From: a virus
Length of the DNA stretch: 23,735 nt
Strand: one strand, 5' to 3'
IMG/VR virus record: IMGVR_UViG_3300032313_001401
Coordinates: 1 to 23,735 of that record
How positions within the stretch are numbered: position 1 is the first letter of the stretch; every line of letters begins with the position of its first letter. The position numbers were made by a program, and so were the translations under genes. Positions 2,446-23,124 of this stretch are shown in pieces. The notes under the pieces were generated by a model. It was given only the letters and a program-made list of their open reading frames with translations, ran no database searches and had not been told where the DNA came from.

Positions 2446-3642
2446 TTAGTTATACGTTATAATATCACTATCACCGTTTTGTGATTTTTTTAACTTTAAC
2501 ATTTGCTCATACTGTTTGATTTTGTCAATTTCATCATCTACTAATCTTTTTTTATTTATAAAATCAACATTACTTTCATTTATATGATTAATATTATCTA
2601 TTGTTTTACTATATTCTGATAGAACATTTTGTTCATAAACTTTATCATCATCTATTATTTCCCATTCACTAGAGTTAGGGGATGAACCTGAAACGTATAT
2701 TTGGTAAGGTTCCTCTTCATCTTTTTCCCATTTTTCTAAATCCTCTAAAGATGCGGTTTCTAAATCCTGGTCATTATCATCTGGCCCATCTTTCTCAGGA
2801 ATATCTATTTCATCCTCATCAGATAATATTTCTTTGTTACGTAGTTGAGCAAAAGCAAAGTTAGCAGCTATTACTAATGCTATAGCTAATGGATCAAAAA
2901 CAAATATAATAACTAATAACAAATAATTTATTATAGTATCCATTGATTTACCCGTTATATTAGATAAATATTTTAACGGACCTAATTCAGATGCTAGTTC
3001 AGTATTAGATTGTACCTCTACAATCCTAGTTTCTAAACTTATGATCGAGTCATTAAATGTTTGAATTTTGCTTGTAAGTTGTTCATCTTTTTGGATAGCC
3101 ACTTCCAACTGTTTTTCATAAGCTTTTCGGTTAGCTGAAGAAGAGTAATTAATAATATTACCAGTAGCATCCCTATAAGACTGAGTATTATTCCCCAAAG
3201 CATTTCGTAGTGTTGATATGTTTTCTGTTAAAGATTGTTTTTCTGTATCGTATTGTGTTTTTATTTTTTCAAAGGATGATTTTTTAATACCTAATAATTC
3301 AACTTGTTTATCTATAATATTAGATTTGGTAGCTGTTTCTTGGTATGCTCCTGAAAGAAACCCATATATTCCTGCTGATGTAATTAGTATTAAGATTACA
3401 ACAGCTATAGTTAAATATATTTTAAGTCCTTTATTTAATTTATCCCAATATTGATACAACAATGATGCTATAACTAGTTTAGATATCTCTAGAGAAGAGG
3501 CCATAACAATTACAGCAAAACTAGCCCCAGCAAATAATTTGCTGAGACCAGTTACGCTGTAGAAAGCAGCAGACGCACTTATTGATAAAGCAGAAAATGC
3601 TATCAAAAATGGAAATATTCTTTCTTTTATTTTTTCAAACAT
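2446..3642 (-). CDS. 398-aa membrane protein with central coiled coil
   Basis: Hydrophobic segments lie at about residues 10-32, 38-63, 74-98 and 237-264. Between the third and fourth lies a stretch of about 110 residues with heptad-like, charged helical character (residues about 105-215; KKSSFEKIKTQYDTEKQ, EVAIQKDEQLTSKIQTFN). The C-terminal 130 residues are highly acidic (DEDEIDIPEKDGPDDNDQD) and then helical. The hydrophobic segments and following motifs (ASSLEISKLVIASLLYQYW; FVFDPLAIALVIAANFA) look deliberate and family-like. From memory similar proteins occur widely in marine T4-type phages, but I cannot name an experimentally known function. A membrane-anchored scaffold with a long coiled coil is what the sequence shows. 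Candidate roles, all inference, are membrane remodelling, exclusion or lysis control. It lies 6 nt downstream of the 75-aa gene, with an AAATAAATAAAAAGTT leader. Confidence 0.75.
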   Translation of the reverse strand: MFEKIKERIFPFLIAFSALSISASAAFYSVTGLSKLFAGASFAVIVMASSLEISKLVIASLLYQYWDKLNKGLKIYLTIAVVILILITSAGIYGFLSGAYQETATKSNIIDKQVELLGIKKSSFEKIKTQYDTEKQSLTENISTLRNALGNNTQSYRDATGNIINYSSSANRKAYEKQLEVAIQKDEQLTSKIQTFNDSIISLETRIVEVQSNTELASELGPLKYLSNITGKSMDTIINYLLLVIIFVFDPLAIALVIAANFAFAQLRNKEILSDEDEIDIPEKDGPDDNDQDLETASLEDLEKWEKDEEEPYQIYVSGSSPNSSEWEIIDDDKVYEQNVLSEYSKTIDNINHINESNVDFINKKRLVDDEIDKIKQYEQMLKLKKSQNGDSDIITYN

Positions 3643-3648
3643 AACTTT

Positions 3649-3876
3649 TTATTTATTTTCAAATAGATTTTTTAATTCCATATCAAGAAGATCTAAATTA
3701 GCATTTAATTCCTTGATAATTCTTTCCTCTAGATCTGGGGATATATTAGAGTTTATTAATTGGATAAATAGAGGAATGGCATTGTTTTCAAACCTATTTA
3801 ACAAATCAGGGCGATCTTGTTTAATAAAATCTAAAGTATTATCTAATCGTTTTCCTAAACTTTGTAATTTACTCAT
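3649..3876 (-). CDS. 75-aa helical hypothetical protein
   Basis: The frame can be extended to an ATG at 3948 (99 aa), but those 24 residues overlap the upstream 54-aa gene in another frame, so I choose the ATG at 3876. It is embedded as ATGAGTAA, an 8-nt overlap with the upstream stop. The product begins MSKLQSLGKRLDNTLDFI and is helical throughout, with an amphipathic, Leu/Asp/Glu-rich C-terminus (LDLLDMELKNLFENK). No cysteine, no membrane segment. No family recognised. It and the 54-aa gene both start MSK and immediately precede the membrane/coiled-coil gene, so the three may act together; that is inference from position. Confidence 0.6.
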   Translation of the reverse strand: MSKLQSLGKRLDNTLDFIKQDRPDLLNRFENNAIPLFIQLINSNISPDLEERIIKELNANLDLLDMELKNLFENK

Positions 3877-4033
3877 TTGGTTTCTTTTTAGATAATGTAA
3901 TAATGTATTCCATTTCCTTTTGTAGTTTCTCCCACAATTCTTCAGCATTACTATTAGAAGAGTTTATTCCTGCTAATTCTTGTAATCGCTTTTTTTCTTC
4001 AATATCTTGGATTTGTTTTTCTATTTTACTCAT
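3869..4033 (-). CDS. 54-aa coiled-coil-like hypothetical protein
   Basis: ATG at 4033, TAA at 3869-3871, 54 codons. The product starts MSKIEKQIQDIEEKKRLQEL, a strongly heptad-like charged helix, followed by a short Asn/Ser linker (INSSNSNA) and a second helix (EELWEKLQKEMEYIITL) ending KKKPNE. A helical hairpin or short coiled coil is likely. It begins 3 nt after the stop of the GIY-YIG gene with an A-rich leader (AAAAATTAAATT) and overlaps the next start by 8 nt. This tight fit is the main evidence it is genuine, and it rules out the longer version of the 75-aa gene. No function can be assigned. Confidence 0.6.
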   Translation of the reverse strand: MSKIEKQIQDIEEKKRLQELAGINSSNSNAEELWEKLQKEMEYIITLSKKKPNE

Positions 4034-4036
4034 AAT

Positions 4037-4708
4037 TTAATTTTTATAAGAGTTAATTGAATCTACTATATTTTTTATGGTTCCCCAACTTACGTTATAT
4101 TCTCTACTTAAATCTGATTTTGAGTAGTTACCTGTTGAAAATTTTTCTCTAATTTCTTTAACAGCAGGTTCTGAGATTAGTTTGGGTTTTGGTTTGGGTT
4201 TATTGTTTTGATAATATTCTTTTAGACCTTTACTTATTTTTTCTTTATTTTCTGGATGTTGGTAGAATTCTTTTAATCCTTTACTTATTTTTTCTCCATG
4301 TTCTTTGGATGTGCTCCATGTATTTTTTCTTCCTTTTAGGGATTTTGATATATTATTTCTAGCTTCCTCAGACATTATTTTATTTTTATTACCTTTACCT
4401 ATTTTCTTTTTAGTTTCTTCACTACATTTCCCATTAGCATTTCCTAATTTACAATTCAATCCCATTTTCCCTAATACATTATATTGTAGTCCCCAATAAA
4501 TTTCTTTTTCATTTAATTGTTCTAAACTACATTCTTCAATAATTTCAAATACATGATTTTTAATACCATATTTTATAAATGAATTATAAAGGTGAGTTTG
4601 TCGTTTGCAATTTAAATATTTATATTTTCTAAATCTAGTTTTTAAATCTACACTTTGTCCAATATATATTTTATTAGAAGGGCTTGTGATCTTATATATT
4701 CCTATCAT
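4037..4708 (-). CDS. Free-standing GIY-YIG homing endonuclease with NUMOD-type repeats
   Basis: From the ATG at 4708 (223 aa), the GIY at residues 3-5, YIG at 15-17, a catalytic-type Arg in DLKTRFRKY and a Glu in NEKEIYW make up a GIY-YIG nuclease domain. After it come NUMOD3-like DNA-binding repeats (SEETKKKIGKGNKNK; SEEARNNISKSLKGRK; two copies of EKISKGLKE-Y/F-YQ) and a C-terminal helix-turn-helix-like segment (SKSDLSREYNVSWGTIKNI). It should make a site-specific cut in DNA of a related phage and spread by recombination. The ORF opens with TTG at 4747, but that is not a credible start because the catalytic domain begins at residue 3 from the ATG. It abuts the ribonucleotide reductase gene, a common homing target. 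Its start codon lies inside a strong hairpin. Lys/Asn-rich codon use suggests independent acquisition. Confidence 0.88.
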   Translation of the reverse strand: MIGIYKITSPSNKIYIGQSVDLKTRFRKYKYLNCKRQTHLYNSFIKYGIKNHVFEIIEECSLEQLNEKEIYWGLQYNVLGKMGLNCKLGNANGKCSEETKKKIGKGNKNKIMSEEARNNISKSLKGRKNTWSTSKEHGEKISKGLKEFYQHPENKEKISKGLKEYYQNNKPKPKPKLISEPAVKEIREKFSTGNYSKSDLSREYNVSWGTIKNIVDSINSYKN

Positions 4709-4741
4709 ACGATAATAAATATATAAAAATTTCACAAGCCC
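4680..4741 (-). promoter_or_regulatory. Long hairpin enclosing the GIY-YIG start, with embedded late-promoter-like element
   Basis: The outer stem is a perfect 10-bp inverted repeat (GGGCTTGTGA / TCACAAGCCC; 4732-4741 with 4680-4689). The inner stem is a perfect 9-bp repeat (TTATATATT / AATATATAA; 4718-4726 with 4692-4700). The apical 17 nt carries TATC/GATA and the start codon 4706-4708. The 5' inner arm coincides with TTATATATTTAT (4715-4726), the same element found upstream of the HNH and tail-tube genes. Read-through mRNA from nrdJ would bury the start codon; a transcript initiated at the element would lack the 5' arms. Confidence 0.6.
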
Positions 4742-4750
4742 CACCAACGC

Positions 4751-6607
4751 TTAAGCTATTTCACAGTTATTTCCAGAGCATGCAAGATTTTCCATTAGAG
4801 CAGTCATATCATCCATTTCAATTACTTTTGTTAAATCAACTGAATTAAGGGAAGTAATTGCTGCTTCAAATTCCTCTTTAGTAATTGTTTCAAAAGGAGC
4901 TTGCTTATAAGTACCAAGGTCTTCCGGTAAGAATGATAATGCTGTAAAGTATTCTTTATTTTCATATAACCACTCTCCAACTGCAGGCCATTCATCTTGT
5001 TTAATAGTCACAGTAGCAGATACGTTATGCATGTTTGAACCTTTTCTATGACCTGGTTTAATCCAGTTTTTGTTGATTGTTTTAATACGCTCTAACAAAT
5101 CCATAGCTGATTCGCTACGTGTAATGGAACCTTCTGGGGCACGTTGAGGAACAGAAACAATTGATTGTAATGTTGGTTTAAAGAAATCATCTTCCAACAT
5201 TTCTGGATGGTACAGGTTTAAGTAAGTATACAAAGCCTCATTTTTACCTAAACGAATTCGACGTAGATAAAAATCATCATGCCAAGCATGAATACCTGAG
5301 CTAGTACCTAATACTAAAGATGTAGTACCTGAGGGTTTAACTGTAGTAACACGAGCTGCTTTATTAATATCTAAAATAGATGCTACTCTAGCGTTTTCTT
5401 CAACAGCTACTTTAGCTGCTTGTTTCATATCTAAATTCAATACAGCACCTGAGGCAATACCTGTCATTCCGATACCTAGTAATGCTTCTTTTTCGGTTGT
5501 TTTTCTCCAAACATCTCTTAAATAATGGAAATCAGTATATGAGGCTTGTAATGTACCAATAAAAGAGGCGGCTTTAGCTCGTGCATTATATTCCTCTTGT
5601 GTTTCAATATCACTAGCATTGATTTCACATAGATTACAGAATTGATTTGCTTTCAAATTAATTTCAGCACAAGGATTAGTTCCTGCTTCTTTATCATTTG
5701 TAAATAAGAAACCGGGTTCACCACTATTAGATGCCTCAATTTTTTTCCATAAATCTAAAAACGTTTCTTTAGTAATTTTACTACGAAGTAATACGGCTGA
5801 ATTGTTTGCTCTGCCTCTTTGAGGATTATTTTCCCACCAATCACCAAATTTACATGTTAACATGTTTTGGTCATGTAGATTAAATAAAGCAATAAGAGCG
5901 GCTCTACGAATACCTCCTGATAATACAGCATCTGCTAGATGACAGATAATATCATGGGCTTCTAAAGTTGTTAATTTTTCACCATCTTTTTTACGGTCAA
6001 AAATAGCTTGCATATGAACTAAAGCAATTTTTAGTGGTTCAGGACCTGGTGCTTTACCACCAACAGTAATTAATGATGCTCCTTTAACCCTAATATCTCT
6101 AAAATCAAATAATGGACCTGTAGATGTAAAACCAAAATATGCTTTGGTTAACATACGAACAGCATCAGCCCATCCTTCAATAGAATCACCTATTAGATAA
6201 CGTTTCCATTTAAGTGGTTTTCTAACTTCAGGTAAATTTTCTACGTGGTGAGTTTGAACTGAGTATCCAACTCCACAACCTGATAGTAATAGGAACATAA
6301 TCTCAGAGAATGCTCTATAATCATCAATTGGTAAATAAGAGCAGTTAAAAATACGAGCATTATTTATTTCAATTGGTTTTCCGGCAAATTGCATACTGCG
6401 CATTGATGGTAATACTTTTTTGTCATAAACATACTTGTAGGCTGCTTCAATTTCCTCAGCCAAAAGAGGAAATTTTTTAAGGTGCATTTCTTTGTTTCGG
6501 GTAACTAGTTCGTCCCAAGTTTCTCGTCTGTTTTTATCAGGAACGTATTTGGCATACTTGAGGTGGGTAGTAATCTCCGACAAAATTTGTGATTCTGTTG
6601 TTAGCAT
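4751..6607 (-). CDS. nrdJ: Class II (adenosylcobalamin-dependent) ribonucleoside triphosphate reductase
   Basis: This 618-aa protein matches the monomeric class II enzyme typified by Lactobacillus leichmannii. All five redox/radical positions are visible: Cys89 in RIFNCSYLP, Cys313 and Glu315 in TNPCAEINLK, Cys324 eleven residues later, and a C-terminal Cys610/Cys615 pair (ACSGNNCEIA). The middle carries LLLSGCGVGYSV and LSGGIRRAAL, and the C-terminal half has VKPSGTTSLVLGTSSGIH. It converts ribonucleotides to deoxyribonucleotides using a B12-generated radical, without oxygen and without a separate small subunit. At 618 residues it is shorter than the about 740 of the Lactobacillus enzyme, so an allosteric insert is probably reduced. 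It lies 18 nt after the helicase gene. No intein or intron is visible. B12 must come from the host, because no cobalamin genes are present here. Confidence 0.92.
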   Translation of the reverse strand: MLTTESQILSEITTHLKYAKYVPDKNRRETWDELVTRNKEMHLKKFPLLAEEIEAAYKYVYDKKVLPSMRSMQFAGKPIEINNARIFNCSYLPIDDYRAFSEIMFLLLSGCGVGYSVQTHHVENLPEVRKPLKWKRYLIGDSIEGWADAVRMLTKAYFGFTSTGPLFDFRDIRVKGASLITVGGKAPGPEPLKIALVHMQAIFDRKKDGEKLTTLEAHDIICHLADAVLSGGIRRAALIALFNLHDQNMLTCKFGDWWENNPQRGRANNSAVLLRSKITKETFLDLWKKIEASNSGEPGFLFTNDKEAGTNPCAEINLKANQFCNLCEINASDIETQEEYNARAKAASFIGTLQASYTDFHYLRDVWRKTTEKEALLGIGMTGIASGAVLNLDMKQAAKVAVEENARVASILDINKAARVTTVKPSGTTSLVLGTSSGIHAWHDDFYLRRIRLGKNEALYTYLNLYHPEMLEDDFFKPTLQSIVSVPQRAPEGSITRSESAMDLLERIKTINKNWIKPGHRKGSNMHNVSATVTIKQDEWPAVGEWLYENKEYFTALSFLPEDLGTYKQAPFETITKEEFEAAITSLNSVDLTKVIEMDDMTALMENLACSGNNCEIA

Positions 6608-21811: not shown

Positions 21812-22300
21812 TTAAAAGTTCAATACACAGTAATCAGGTTGAACAGTCATCGTAAGATTCACAGCAGTATCTGTAGTATCCCAGTTATATTCACCAAAAT
21901 TAGCATCTGTAATAATTGCTCCTTTGATAATCCATTCGGAAACAATATCACCTACTGGACCTAGTACGTTAAAAGTTAAATCTTTCTTGTAGAAATCACT
22001 ATAACCATCTCTACCTGTTACTGATTCGTGATGTAGACGTACCCACTCCATTACTGATTGGGCACCTGATGGGGTGATAGGATCAAATAATGTAAACTGG
22101 ATAGTACCCCAAGTTGTTTTACCTTTAACAAATCGTTGGATATTGATATGGTTTAAAGCTACTGTACCTTGAGTTAAATTTACTGCTCCTACTCCTTTTA
22201 CTTCATAAGAGGGAATACCATCAATATACATGATAAATCTATTTGCCTGCTTTGGTTCAAAAGCTGTAAAGAAAATTTCATTTGGATTTAATACGGCCAT
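21812..22300 (-). CDS. 19: Tail tube protein (gp19-like)
   Basis: A 162-residue, beta-rich protein, essentially the length of T4 gp19 (163). It starts with a tube-type N-terminus (NPNEIFFTAFEPKQANRFIM, YIDGIPSYEVKGV), has a central GKTTWGTIQFTLFDPITPSG and VMEWVRLHHESVTG, and ends with a strand DTAVNLTMTVQPDYCVLNF. Six copies per ring stack inside the sheath to form the inner tube. It has its own promoter-like element (TTATATATTTATCAATGA) and strong terminator, so it appears to be a separate transcription unit, as expected for an abundant virion protein. In most contractile phages the sheath gene lies next to it; here an HNH endonuclease gene lies between. Confidence 0.9.
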   Translation of the reverse strand: MAVLNPNEIFFTAFEPKQANRFIMYIDGIPSYEVKGVGAVNLTQGTVALNHINIQRFVKGKTTWGTIQFTLFDPITPSGAQSVMEWVRLHHESVTGRDGYSDFYKKDLTFNVLGPVGDIVSEWIIKGAIITDANFGEYNWDTTDTAVNLTMTVQPDYCVLNF

Positions 22301-22321: not shown

Positions 22322-22339
22322 TCATTGATAAATATATAA
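22322..22339 (-). promoter_or_regulatory. Late-promoter-like element before the tail tube gene
   Basis: TTATATATTTATCAATGA (minus strand) matches the element before the HNH gene (23061-23078) in 17 of 18 positions. It ends about 21 nt before the ATG at 22300. Two such long near-identical blocks upstream of unrelated genes are the best support for a shared promoter. Confidence 0.6.
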
Positions 22340-22358: not shown

Positions 22359-23042
22359 TTAATTAGAAGATTTATTTCTATTTCCTATATGGTTTTTATA
22401 ACCAAAAGATTTAGATATTTCTGTGGTTTTAAATAAAGGTTGTAAATTAGAATAGTGAAAACATTCTTGTTGTTGTTTTACATCCGTTAAATCAAAAGAG
22501 GCACATGGTTTTATATGGTCTATTTCCCAGATTTCTCCATGGTTATTCCAATTCATCTCGGGGGTGAATTTAGATTCCAATAAAAGTTTTAATTCATTTA
22601 AAGAACATCCTAATAATTTAATTATATTTGAATCTTTATTTGTTTTAGATTTTTTAAGACATTCATTTAATCTGTTACCTAATGTTATCCTTAATCTAAA
22701 ATTAGGATTATTATCCCATTGATTTTGTCTCCATTTTTTAAAATATTCTCTATTATTTTTAGCCCATTTATTATGAGTTAATTTACTAGATTCAAGATGG
22801 GTTTTTTGCCATTTTATACTTTTTTTGTTTACTTTTTCTTTATTATTACTATAATACTTTTTACTATTATTTTGATGGTTTTCTTTAGTTTTTAAATAAT
22901 ATTGAGATATTATTTCTTTATTTTTTATATTATATTTTTTTCTACAAGAAATACATTGATTATTATAACCATCTTTTGATGATACTTTTTTATAAAAATC
23001 AGAAAATTGTTTTTCTTGATTACATTTATTACATATTTTCAT
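22359..23042 (-). CDS. HNH homing endonuclease inserted between sheath and tube genes
   Basis: The 227-aa protein has an N-terminal zinc-ribbon-type motif (C4xxC7 and C30xxC33 in MKICNKCNQEKQF / NQCISCRKKYN), a long Lys/Asn-rich basic middle (residues 40-110, probably DNA-binding), a helical region (LRITLGNRLNECLKK), and a C-terminal HNH nuclease: IWEIDHIKPC (Asp175, His176), then CFHYSNLQPLF (His196, Asn199). It is the HNH type found as free-standing homing endonucleases in phages. It would cut an endonuclease-free sheath-tube junction and spread the gene by repair. Lys/Asn-rich, A-rich codons differ from the flanking structural genes, consistent with separate acquisition. It has its own promoter-like element and lies after the sheath terminator, so expression is independent of the sheath. 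Confidence 0.9.
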   Translation of the reverse strand: MKICNKCNQEKQFSDFYKKVSSKDGYNNQCISCRKKYNIKNKEIISQYYLKTKENHQNNSKKYYSNNKEKVNKKSIKWQKTHLESSKLTHNKWAKNNREYFKKWRQNQWDNNPNFRLRITLGNRLNECLKKSKTNKDSNIIKLLGCSLNELKLLLESKFTPEMNWNNHGEIWEIDHIKPCASFDLTDVKQQQECFHYSNLQPLFKTTEISKSFGYKNHIGNRNKSSN

Positions 23043-23060
23043 ATAAATATTTCGTTTGGG

Positions 23061-23078
23061 TCATTCATAAATATATAA
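23061..23078 (-). promoter_or_regulatory. Late-promoter-like element before the HNH gene
   Basis: TTATATATTTATGAATGA overlaps the U tract of the sheath terminator and lies about 18 nt before the ATG at 23042. It differs by one base from the element before the tail tube gene. Confidence 0.55.
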
Positions 23079-23103
23079 AAGGGTGTTAAAAAACACCCCT
23101 TTA
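23077..23103 (-). terminator. Terminator after the tail sheath gene
   Basis: GGGTGTT (23092-23098) pairs perfectly with AACACCC (23081-23087) around a short loop, with TTTT directly after it (23077-23080) and A's before the stem. It lies 22 nt after the sheath stop. Confidence 0.85.
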
Positions 23104-23124
23104 AAATATTAGTCCTTTAAAAAA

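Follow-up and report, generated by a model that had tools for sequence, protein, structure and literature searches.

In bacteriophage T4, the I-TevI homing endonuclease gene belongs to an early or middle transcription unit, and a stable hairpin on the long RNA hides its initiation region. A promoter in or beside the hairpin yields a shorter RNA that is unable to fold. I-TevI also represses its own late promoter via an operator resembling its homing site (PMC2988022). Two free-standing phage homing endonuclease genes, mobE of Aeh1 and segB of T4, likewise have their initiation region in a hairpin (PMC2988022), and the T4 late genes e, soc and 49 are kept silent on early RNA by a hairpin, the 5' arm of which is absent from late RNA (PMC3014915).

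The locus described here is predicted from its sequence to carry a switch that delays expression of a free-standing GIY-YIG homing endonuclease until the late phase. It would be a leaderless variant of the T4 I-TevI switch that operates without a Shine-Dalgarno site. A rough probability of 0.78 may be attached to this reading.

The locus and its surroundings

The window is the whole 23,735-nt stretch of IMG/VR record IMGVR_UViG_3300032313_001401. Its minus strand carries all of the main genes, among them the endonuclease gene with its hairpin. The genes that matter here are:

4037..4708, minus strand: free-standing GIY-YIG homing endonuclease gene, 223 aa (Pfam GIY-YIG above cut-off, plus NUMOD3)
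4751..6607, minus strand: nrdJ-type ribonucleotide reductase gene (open reading frame; Pfam Ribonuc_red_lgC)
21812..22300, minus strand: tail tube gene, late structural (PHROG tail tube, 3.4e-23)
22359..23042, minus strand: HNH/endonuclease VII-like homing endonuclease gene (PHROG endonuclease VII, 4.5e-12)

The nearest cultured relative found is the T4-like Flavobacterium phage vB_FspM_immuto (NC_055915; tail sheath 69%, helicase 56%), which makes a Bacteroidota host likely for the window phage, with flavobacteria the likely group.

The GIY-YIG product matches the PHROG homing endonuclease family (1.4e-28) and, weakly, I-TevI (1mk0). Its GIY..YIG catalytic module with the conserved Arg is present as G3-I4-Y5, Y15-I16-G17 and R25 (G3, Y5, Y15, G17 and R25 are invariant in A1), and together the Pfam and PHROG matches identify a phage homing endonuclease. 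No Shine-Dalgarno-like sequence is found in the bases read before its ATG. Upstream lies nrdJ with a complete C-terminus (..CSGNNCEIA), preceded by replication genes; all are oriented as the endonuclease gene is and lack the late motif described below, whose core ATATTTAT was absent upstream of nrdJ in a search of the window for the promoter element. The endonuclease frame is open from the nrdJ stop onward (window 4751-4708, also in the relative L002), so nrdJ read-through would yield a fusion; it is closed in the relatives L267 and L036.

A nested hairpin over the start codon

The start of the endonuclease gene lies within two nested stems:

4732..4741, minus strand: outer stem, 5' arm GGGCTTGTGA (by folding and pairing)
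4718..4726, minus strand: inner stem, 5' arm TTATATATT (by folding and pairing)
4701..4717, minus strand: loop of 17 nt with the start codon ATG at 4708-4706 (read from the sequence)
4692..4700, minus strand: inner stem, 3' arm AATATATAA, coding (by folding and pairing)
4680..4689, minus strand: outer stem, 3' arm TCACAAGCCC, within the endonuclease codons for I-T-S-P

The original prediction had proposed this geometry, and on the minus strand it is borne out throughout: a perfect outer stem of 10 bp (4741-4732/4689-4680), a perfect inner stem of 9 bp (4726-4718, TTATATATT, with 4700-4692, AATATATAA) and a 17-nt loop (4717-4701) that holds the ATG (4708-4706). It had also equated the inner 5' arm with a promoter element. 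That is right for the paired arm TTATATATT, while the last three bases of the element are unpaired and fall in the loop.

The minus-strand RNA has a minimum free energy of -35.2 kcal/mol against -14.4 +/- 3.1 for shuffles (z -6.8; 0/200 shuffles as stable), and among 1,600 other gene starts in 13 contigs (the window and 12 related ones) none matches its pairing across the AUG. On read-through RNA, opening the start region is calculated to cost 11.55 kcal/mol, compared with 1.6-1.7 kcal/mol for a late RNA starting at the AUG or one base earlier. Ribosomes that terminate on nrdJ halt some 10 nt short of the stem and could destabilize its base; with the outer stem melted in this way, the inner stem alone would still take 6.6-8.3 kcal/mol to open in silico. 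The hairpin matches no known RNA family in Rfam.

Conservation of the stems in relatives had been named beforehand as a check. Three orthologues of the window hairpin were found. L002 shares 84.9% identity with the window in nrdJ and about 86% in the later part of the endonuclease coding sequence, while its hairpin differs by 1 base in 62 nt, and that base lies in the internal loop. L267 is more distant (64% in the flanking nrdJ), yet identity is 91% over the first 45 coding bases, and it keeps most of the pairs.

A probable late-promoter motif

The inner stem overlaps a sequence that recurs elsewhere in the window:

4715..4726, minus strand: late-promoter element TTATATATTTAT, core ATATTTAT at 4722-4715; dominant upstream motif of the clade
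4708..4710, minus strand: predicted start of late transcription, at the A of the AUG or 1-2 nt earlier (from motif spacing)
22328..22339, minus strand: copy of TTATATATTTAT, exact 12-mer, 27 nt before the tail tube gene
23067..23078, minus strand: copy of TTATATATTTAT, exact 12-mer, after a terminator-like hairpin and 24 nt before the HNH gene

As had been noticed earlier, the element precedes two other window genes, with exact 12-mer copies at 22339-22328 and 23078-23067; it stands in front of tail genes, not of replication genes. Upstream of the HNH gene (window 23043-23110) are a terminator-like hairpin, the element, at 24 nt from the ATG, and another ATATTTAT, immediately in front of that codon; the gene at 22359..23042 has no promoter-spanning hairpin (ddG 0.0). 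Within the window the 12-mer count is not beyond chance (5 matches with at most 1 mismatch, 2.9 expected), and the significance of TTATATATTTAT derives instead from a clade-wide motif analysis of twelve related contigs, read whole (G001-G012; L102-L169).

No other 8-mer found upstream of genes is as strand-biased as ATATTTAT, which occurs 235 times in sense and 9 times in antisense orientation. Its distances to the ATG cluster tightly at 4-6 nt (122 cases), become scarce at 7-10 nt (19) and spread broadly over 11-24 nt, and terminators often directly precede it. In the 162 genes with the element 11-30 nt upstream, a +1-like A is conserved 4-5 nt past the motif end (73-85% A); in the short-spaced class, the A of the AUG sits where this +1 A falls. 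Flavobacterium johnsoniae has no Shine-Dalgarno sites, and its -7 element TAHHTTTG lies 4-5 nt from the start (PMC6847099). ATATTTAT is closer to that element than to the T4 late consensus TATAAATA, which it does not fit; F. johnsoniae differs from the short-spaced class of the clade in that 87% of its leaders exceed 10 nt. The start predicted at 4708..4710 follows from the spacing in the leadered promoters of the clade and in Flavobacterium (PMC6847099). In immuto, TATTTAT precedes 9/24 genes for structure or lysis, against 3/33 of the remaining genes (p 0.012). On the simplest reading of these sequence statistics, ATATTTAT serves this phage clade as a true promoter motif on the sense strand and gives leaderless RNA at short spacing.

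The original prediction had listed as its weak point that the element is only 6 nt from the ATG, leaving late transcripts nearly leaderless. The spacing is correct, and it loses its force as an objection since the 4-6 nt class is common (122 cases) and, with the +1 A of other promoters coinciding with the A of the AUG, is the normal leaderless class. The 122 cases in G001-G012 and the window suggest that many late mRNAs of this T4-like clade are leaderless.

Sigma-like proteins are encoded on some contigs and could be what reads ATATTTAT; one family is shared with immuto. This conserved 236-aa family (G003:141875-142582, G002:2460-3161, G011:87879-88550 and immuto 78171-78848) has a weak Sigma70_r2 match and no PHROG match, and could be a candidate for the late sigma factor of the clade.

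The nrdJ-tail copy

One further feature connects the hairpin to its neighbor:

4725..4750, minus strand: GGTGGGGCTTGTGAAAT, a degenerate copy of the 3' end of nrdJ (compare GGTGGAGCTTGTGAAAT; profile z 7.8), located immediately behind the nrdJ stop

GCGTTGGTGGGGCTTGTGAAAT, which immediately follows the nrdJ stop, thus copies the nrdJ 3' end in degenerate form and abuts the late promoter. Against a tail profile built from 54 nrdJ tails without an endonuclease gene, 11 of 11 nrdJ-adjacent GIY-YIG loci examined score above all 54 loci without the gene (p 1e-7). The outer 5' arm comes from this copy in both the window and the L267 lineage. No target-tail copy of the nrdJ type was found at endonuclease genes away from nrdJ. 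From its sequence, the copy looks like the footprint of an insertion at nrdJ, whose 3' end is the probable homing target of the endonuclease; by analogy with the I-TevI operator, it might also bind the enzyme. In other phages (L011, L027, L032 and L038) the position behind nrdJ is taken by a second, HNH-like family (MRKSKYEN/MKKREHY), which marks the nrdJ 3' end as a recurrent insertion site.

Hairpins at other homing endonuclease genes

Further GIY-YIG and HNH genes were located in related DNA by profiles, giving 42 nonredundant endonuclease genes with the element for comparison with 300 other genes that have it, and an enlarged endonuclease set of 110. On read-through RNA, the mean added opening cost is 6.1 kcal/mol for the 42 endonuclease genes and 2.0 kcal/mol for the 300 others (p 5e-9). 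A cost of at least 9 kcal/mol is reached by 12/42 endonuclease genes against 2/300 others (p 2e-10), and by 26/110 in the enlarged set. Many endonuclease genes with the element have no strong hairpin. Late RNAs are equally open in the two groups (1.8 and 1.8).

The arms also appear to be matched gene by gene. Across the 110 genes, a 5' region pairs with its own 3' region at -12.1, compared with -8.1 when regions are swapped (p 2e-10), and the preference holds in the 41 genes that start with the GIYKI motif (p 2.7e-4); it is absent in the 300 control genes (p 0.60). Stem sequences are entirely different between families, as in GAGACTCCGT-element-ACGGAGTCTC for an HNH-like gene versus ATTCCTGTCAT-element-ATGACAGGAAT for a GIY-YIG gene. 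Paired changes are seen, with GTGTGTTCC/GGAACACAC versus GTGTGCTCC/GGAGCACAC and GACACTCAT/ATGAGTGTC versus GATACTTAT/ATAAGTGTC. In the MEHTKIYY family, the one family alignment tested, column-wise covariation is not above shuffles and pairing is partly lost in 3/11 members.

The idea that endonuclease genes carry either a terminator or a hairpin found no support (8 genes with a terminator, 102 without; p 0.21). Some HNH-type genes, in L256 and L258 (about 1300-1400), have long perfect hairpins TTTGCAGGTATG..CATACCTGCA over the start without ATATTTAT. A smaller version of the lock occurs at some late genes that do not encode endonucleases (G001:50429, tail sheath; G011:29254; G007:30549; G001:37488), where ATGGCA at the start pairs with a short arm (TGCCAT or similar) immediately ahead of the element.

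Alternative readings

The strongest rival treats the inverted repeats as DNA operators: the endonuclease or another repressor would bind across the promoter to bring about autorepression, and RNA folding would be incidental. I-TevI provides the precedent, since it represses its own late promoter through a homing-site-like operator (PMC2988022), and the probable target, the 3' end of nrdJ, has its copy right at the promoter. The mismatches within stems, 13 G-U against 9 A-C (p 0.26), do not favour RNA. However, strong-stem repeats are centred anywhere between -4.5 and +25.5 nt from the element, which leaves no fixed operator geometry; the position of the 3' arm follows that of the AUG (rho 0.48, a value constrained by the search region), arms often extend 10-28 nt into coding sequence, and endonuclease genes away from nrdJ yielded no target copy. 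Operators in place of an RNA lock are thus improbable, and the two could coexist. One may even imagine a single 60-nt stretch with three jobs, the nrdJ-tail copy serving as a DNA operator at the late promoter and as the 5' arm of the RNA lock, with release by a leaderless late RNA that starts exactly at the AUG, although this full combination seems unlikely.

Another possibility is that ATATTTAT near the AUG is a translation signal rather than a promoter, in which case no late RNA would start in the hairpin. The sharp distance of 4-6 nt to the ATG in 122 cases is what such a signal would give. The same motif, however, is also found 11-30 nt ahead of 162 genes, where a conserved +1-like A keeps a fixed distance from it; it often comes directly after terminators, is depleted at spacings of 7-10 nt and resembles the flavobacterial -7 element TAHHTTTG with its 4-5 nt to the start (PMC6847099), all of which render this account highly improbable.

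The hairpin might also be the intrinsic terminator of nrdJ or a fragment of one, given that in some relatives without the gene (L039-L045) nrdJ is immediately followed by a true terminator, whose stem is GGGCTTG/CAAGCCC, and then by the promoter element. This is hardly tenable for the window: the 3' arm is inside coding sequence, the bases after that arm (TTCTAATAAA) contain no T run, a terminator scan of 3600-5000 finds none, and the nrdJ tail is a far better match to the 5' arm. Scarcely credible is the production of the endonuclease by stop-codon read-through or translational coupling from nrdJ with the hairpin helping: the frames match and are open in the window and L002, but stops close the frame in L267 and L036, the nrdJ C-terminus is complete and the ATG is 42 nt from the stop.

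The proposed switch

The original suggestion of an I-TevI-like switch is supported by the sequence-level tests, namely the promoter motif before late structural genes, the conserved hairpin and its recurrence with different stems. In the late-expression switch favoured here, RNA reading through from nrdJ, as is assumed, would fold the endonuclease start codon into the nested hairpin, so that RNA made before late transcription would leave the endonuclease untranslated. Late RNA polymerase would then start at ATATTTAT to produce a leaderless or near-leaderless mRNA beginning at the AUG; lacking the whole 5' side of the hairpin, this RNA could be translated. The outer 5' arm would have been recycled from the copy of the nrdJ 3' end. 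With flavobacteria lacking Shine-Dalgarno sites as the likely hosts, what the lock hides is the AUG and not such a site.

More broadly, the hiding of starts in late-promoter hairpins as a means to time homing endonucleases does not appear to be a peculiarity of T4. The design recurs in GIY-YIG and HNH families with unrelated stems, in phages whose likely hosts have no Shine-Dalgarno sites, and it suggests that many late messages of these phages are probably leaderless.

Comparison with known systems

The closest parallel is I-TevI. The shared features are a homing endonuclease gene, a stable hairpin on the long RNA over the initiation region (here in silico, z -6.8 and 11.55 kcal/mol), and a promoter in or beside the hairpin that gives a shorter RNA unable to fold (here from motif and spacing statistics). 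The nrdJ unit, without the late motif, may likewise be an early or middle transcription unit. The homing-site-like operator of the I-TevI promoter might have its equivalent in the nrdJ-tail copy. Unlike I-TevI, the window gene is free-standing after nrdJ with no intron, the AUG itself is hidden with no Shine-Dalgarno site sequestered, and the promoter is ATATTTAT rather than TATAAATA, at 6 nt from the AUG and with a predicted leaderless late RNA.

Turning to the free-standing genes, mobE also adjoins ribonucleotide reductase genes (PMC2988022). Both mobE and segB are Shine-Dalgarno-based and leadered, mobE being of the HNH type (PMC2988022), and only in the window is the outer arm derived from the 3' end of the target gene. 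The T4 genes e, soc and 49 are Shine-Dalgarno-based as well and are not mobile endonucleases (PMC3014915); some late structural genes of the clade, such as tail sheath, resemble their arrangement. Immuto shares with the window phage the motif before structural genes and differs in having class I nrdA/nrdF in place of nrdJ, with no GIY-YIG gene after its nrd genes. Since the hidden Shine-Dalgarno site of the I-TevI, mobE and segB switches is missing here because none exists, the window switch would be a variant of theirs and not a copy.
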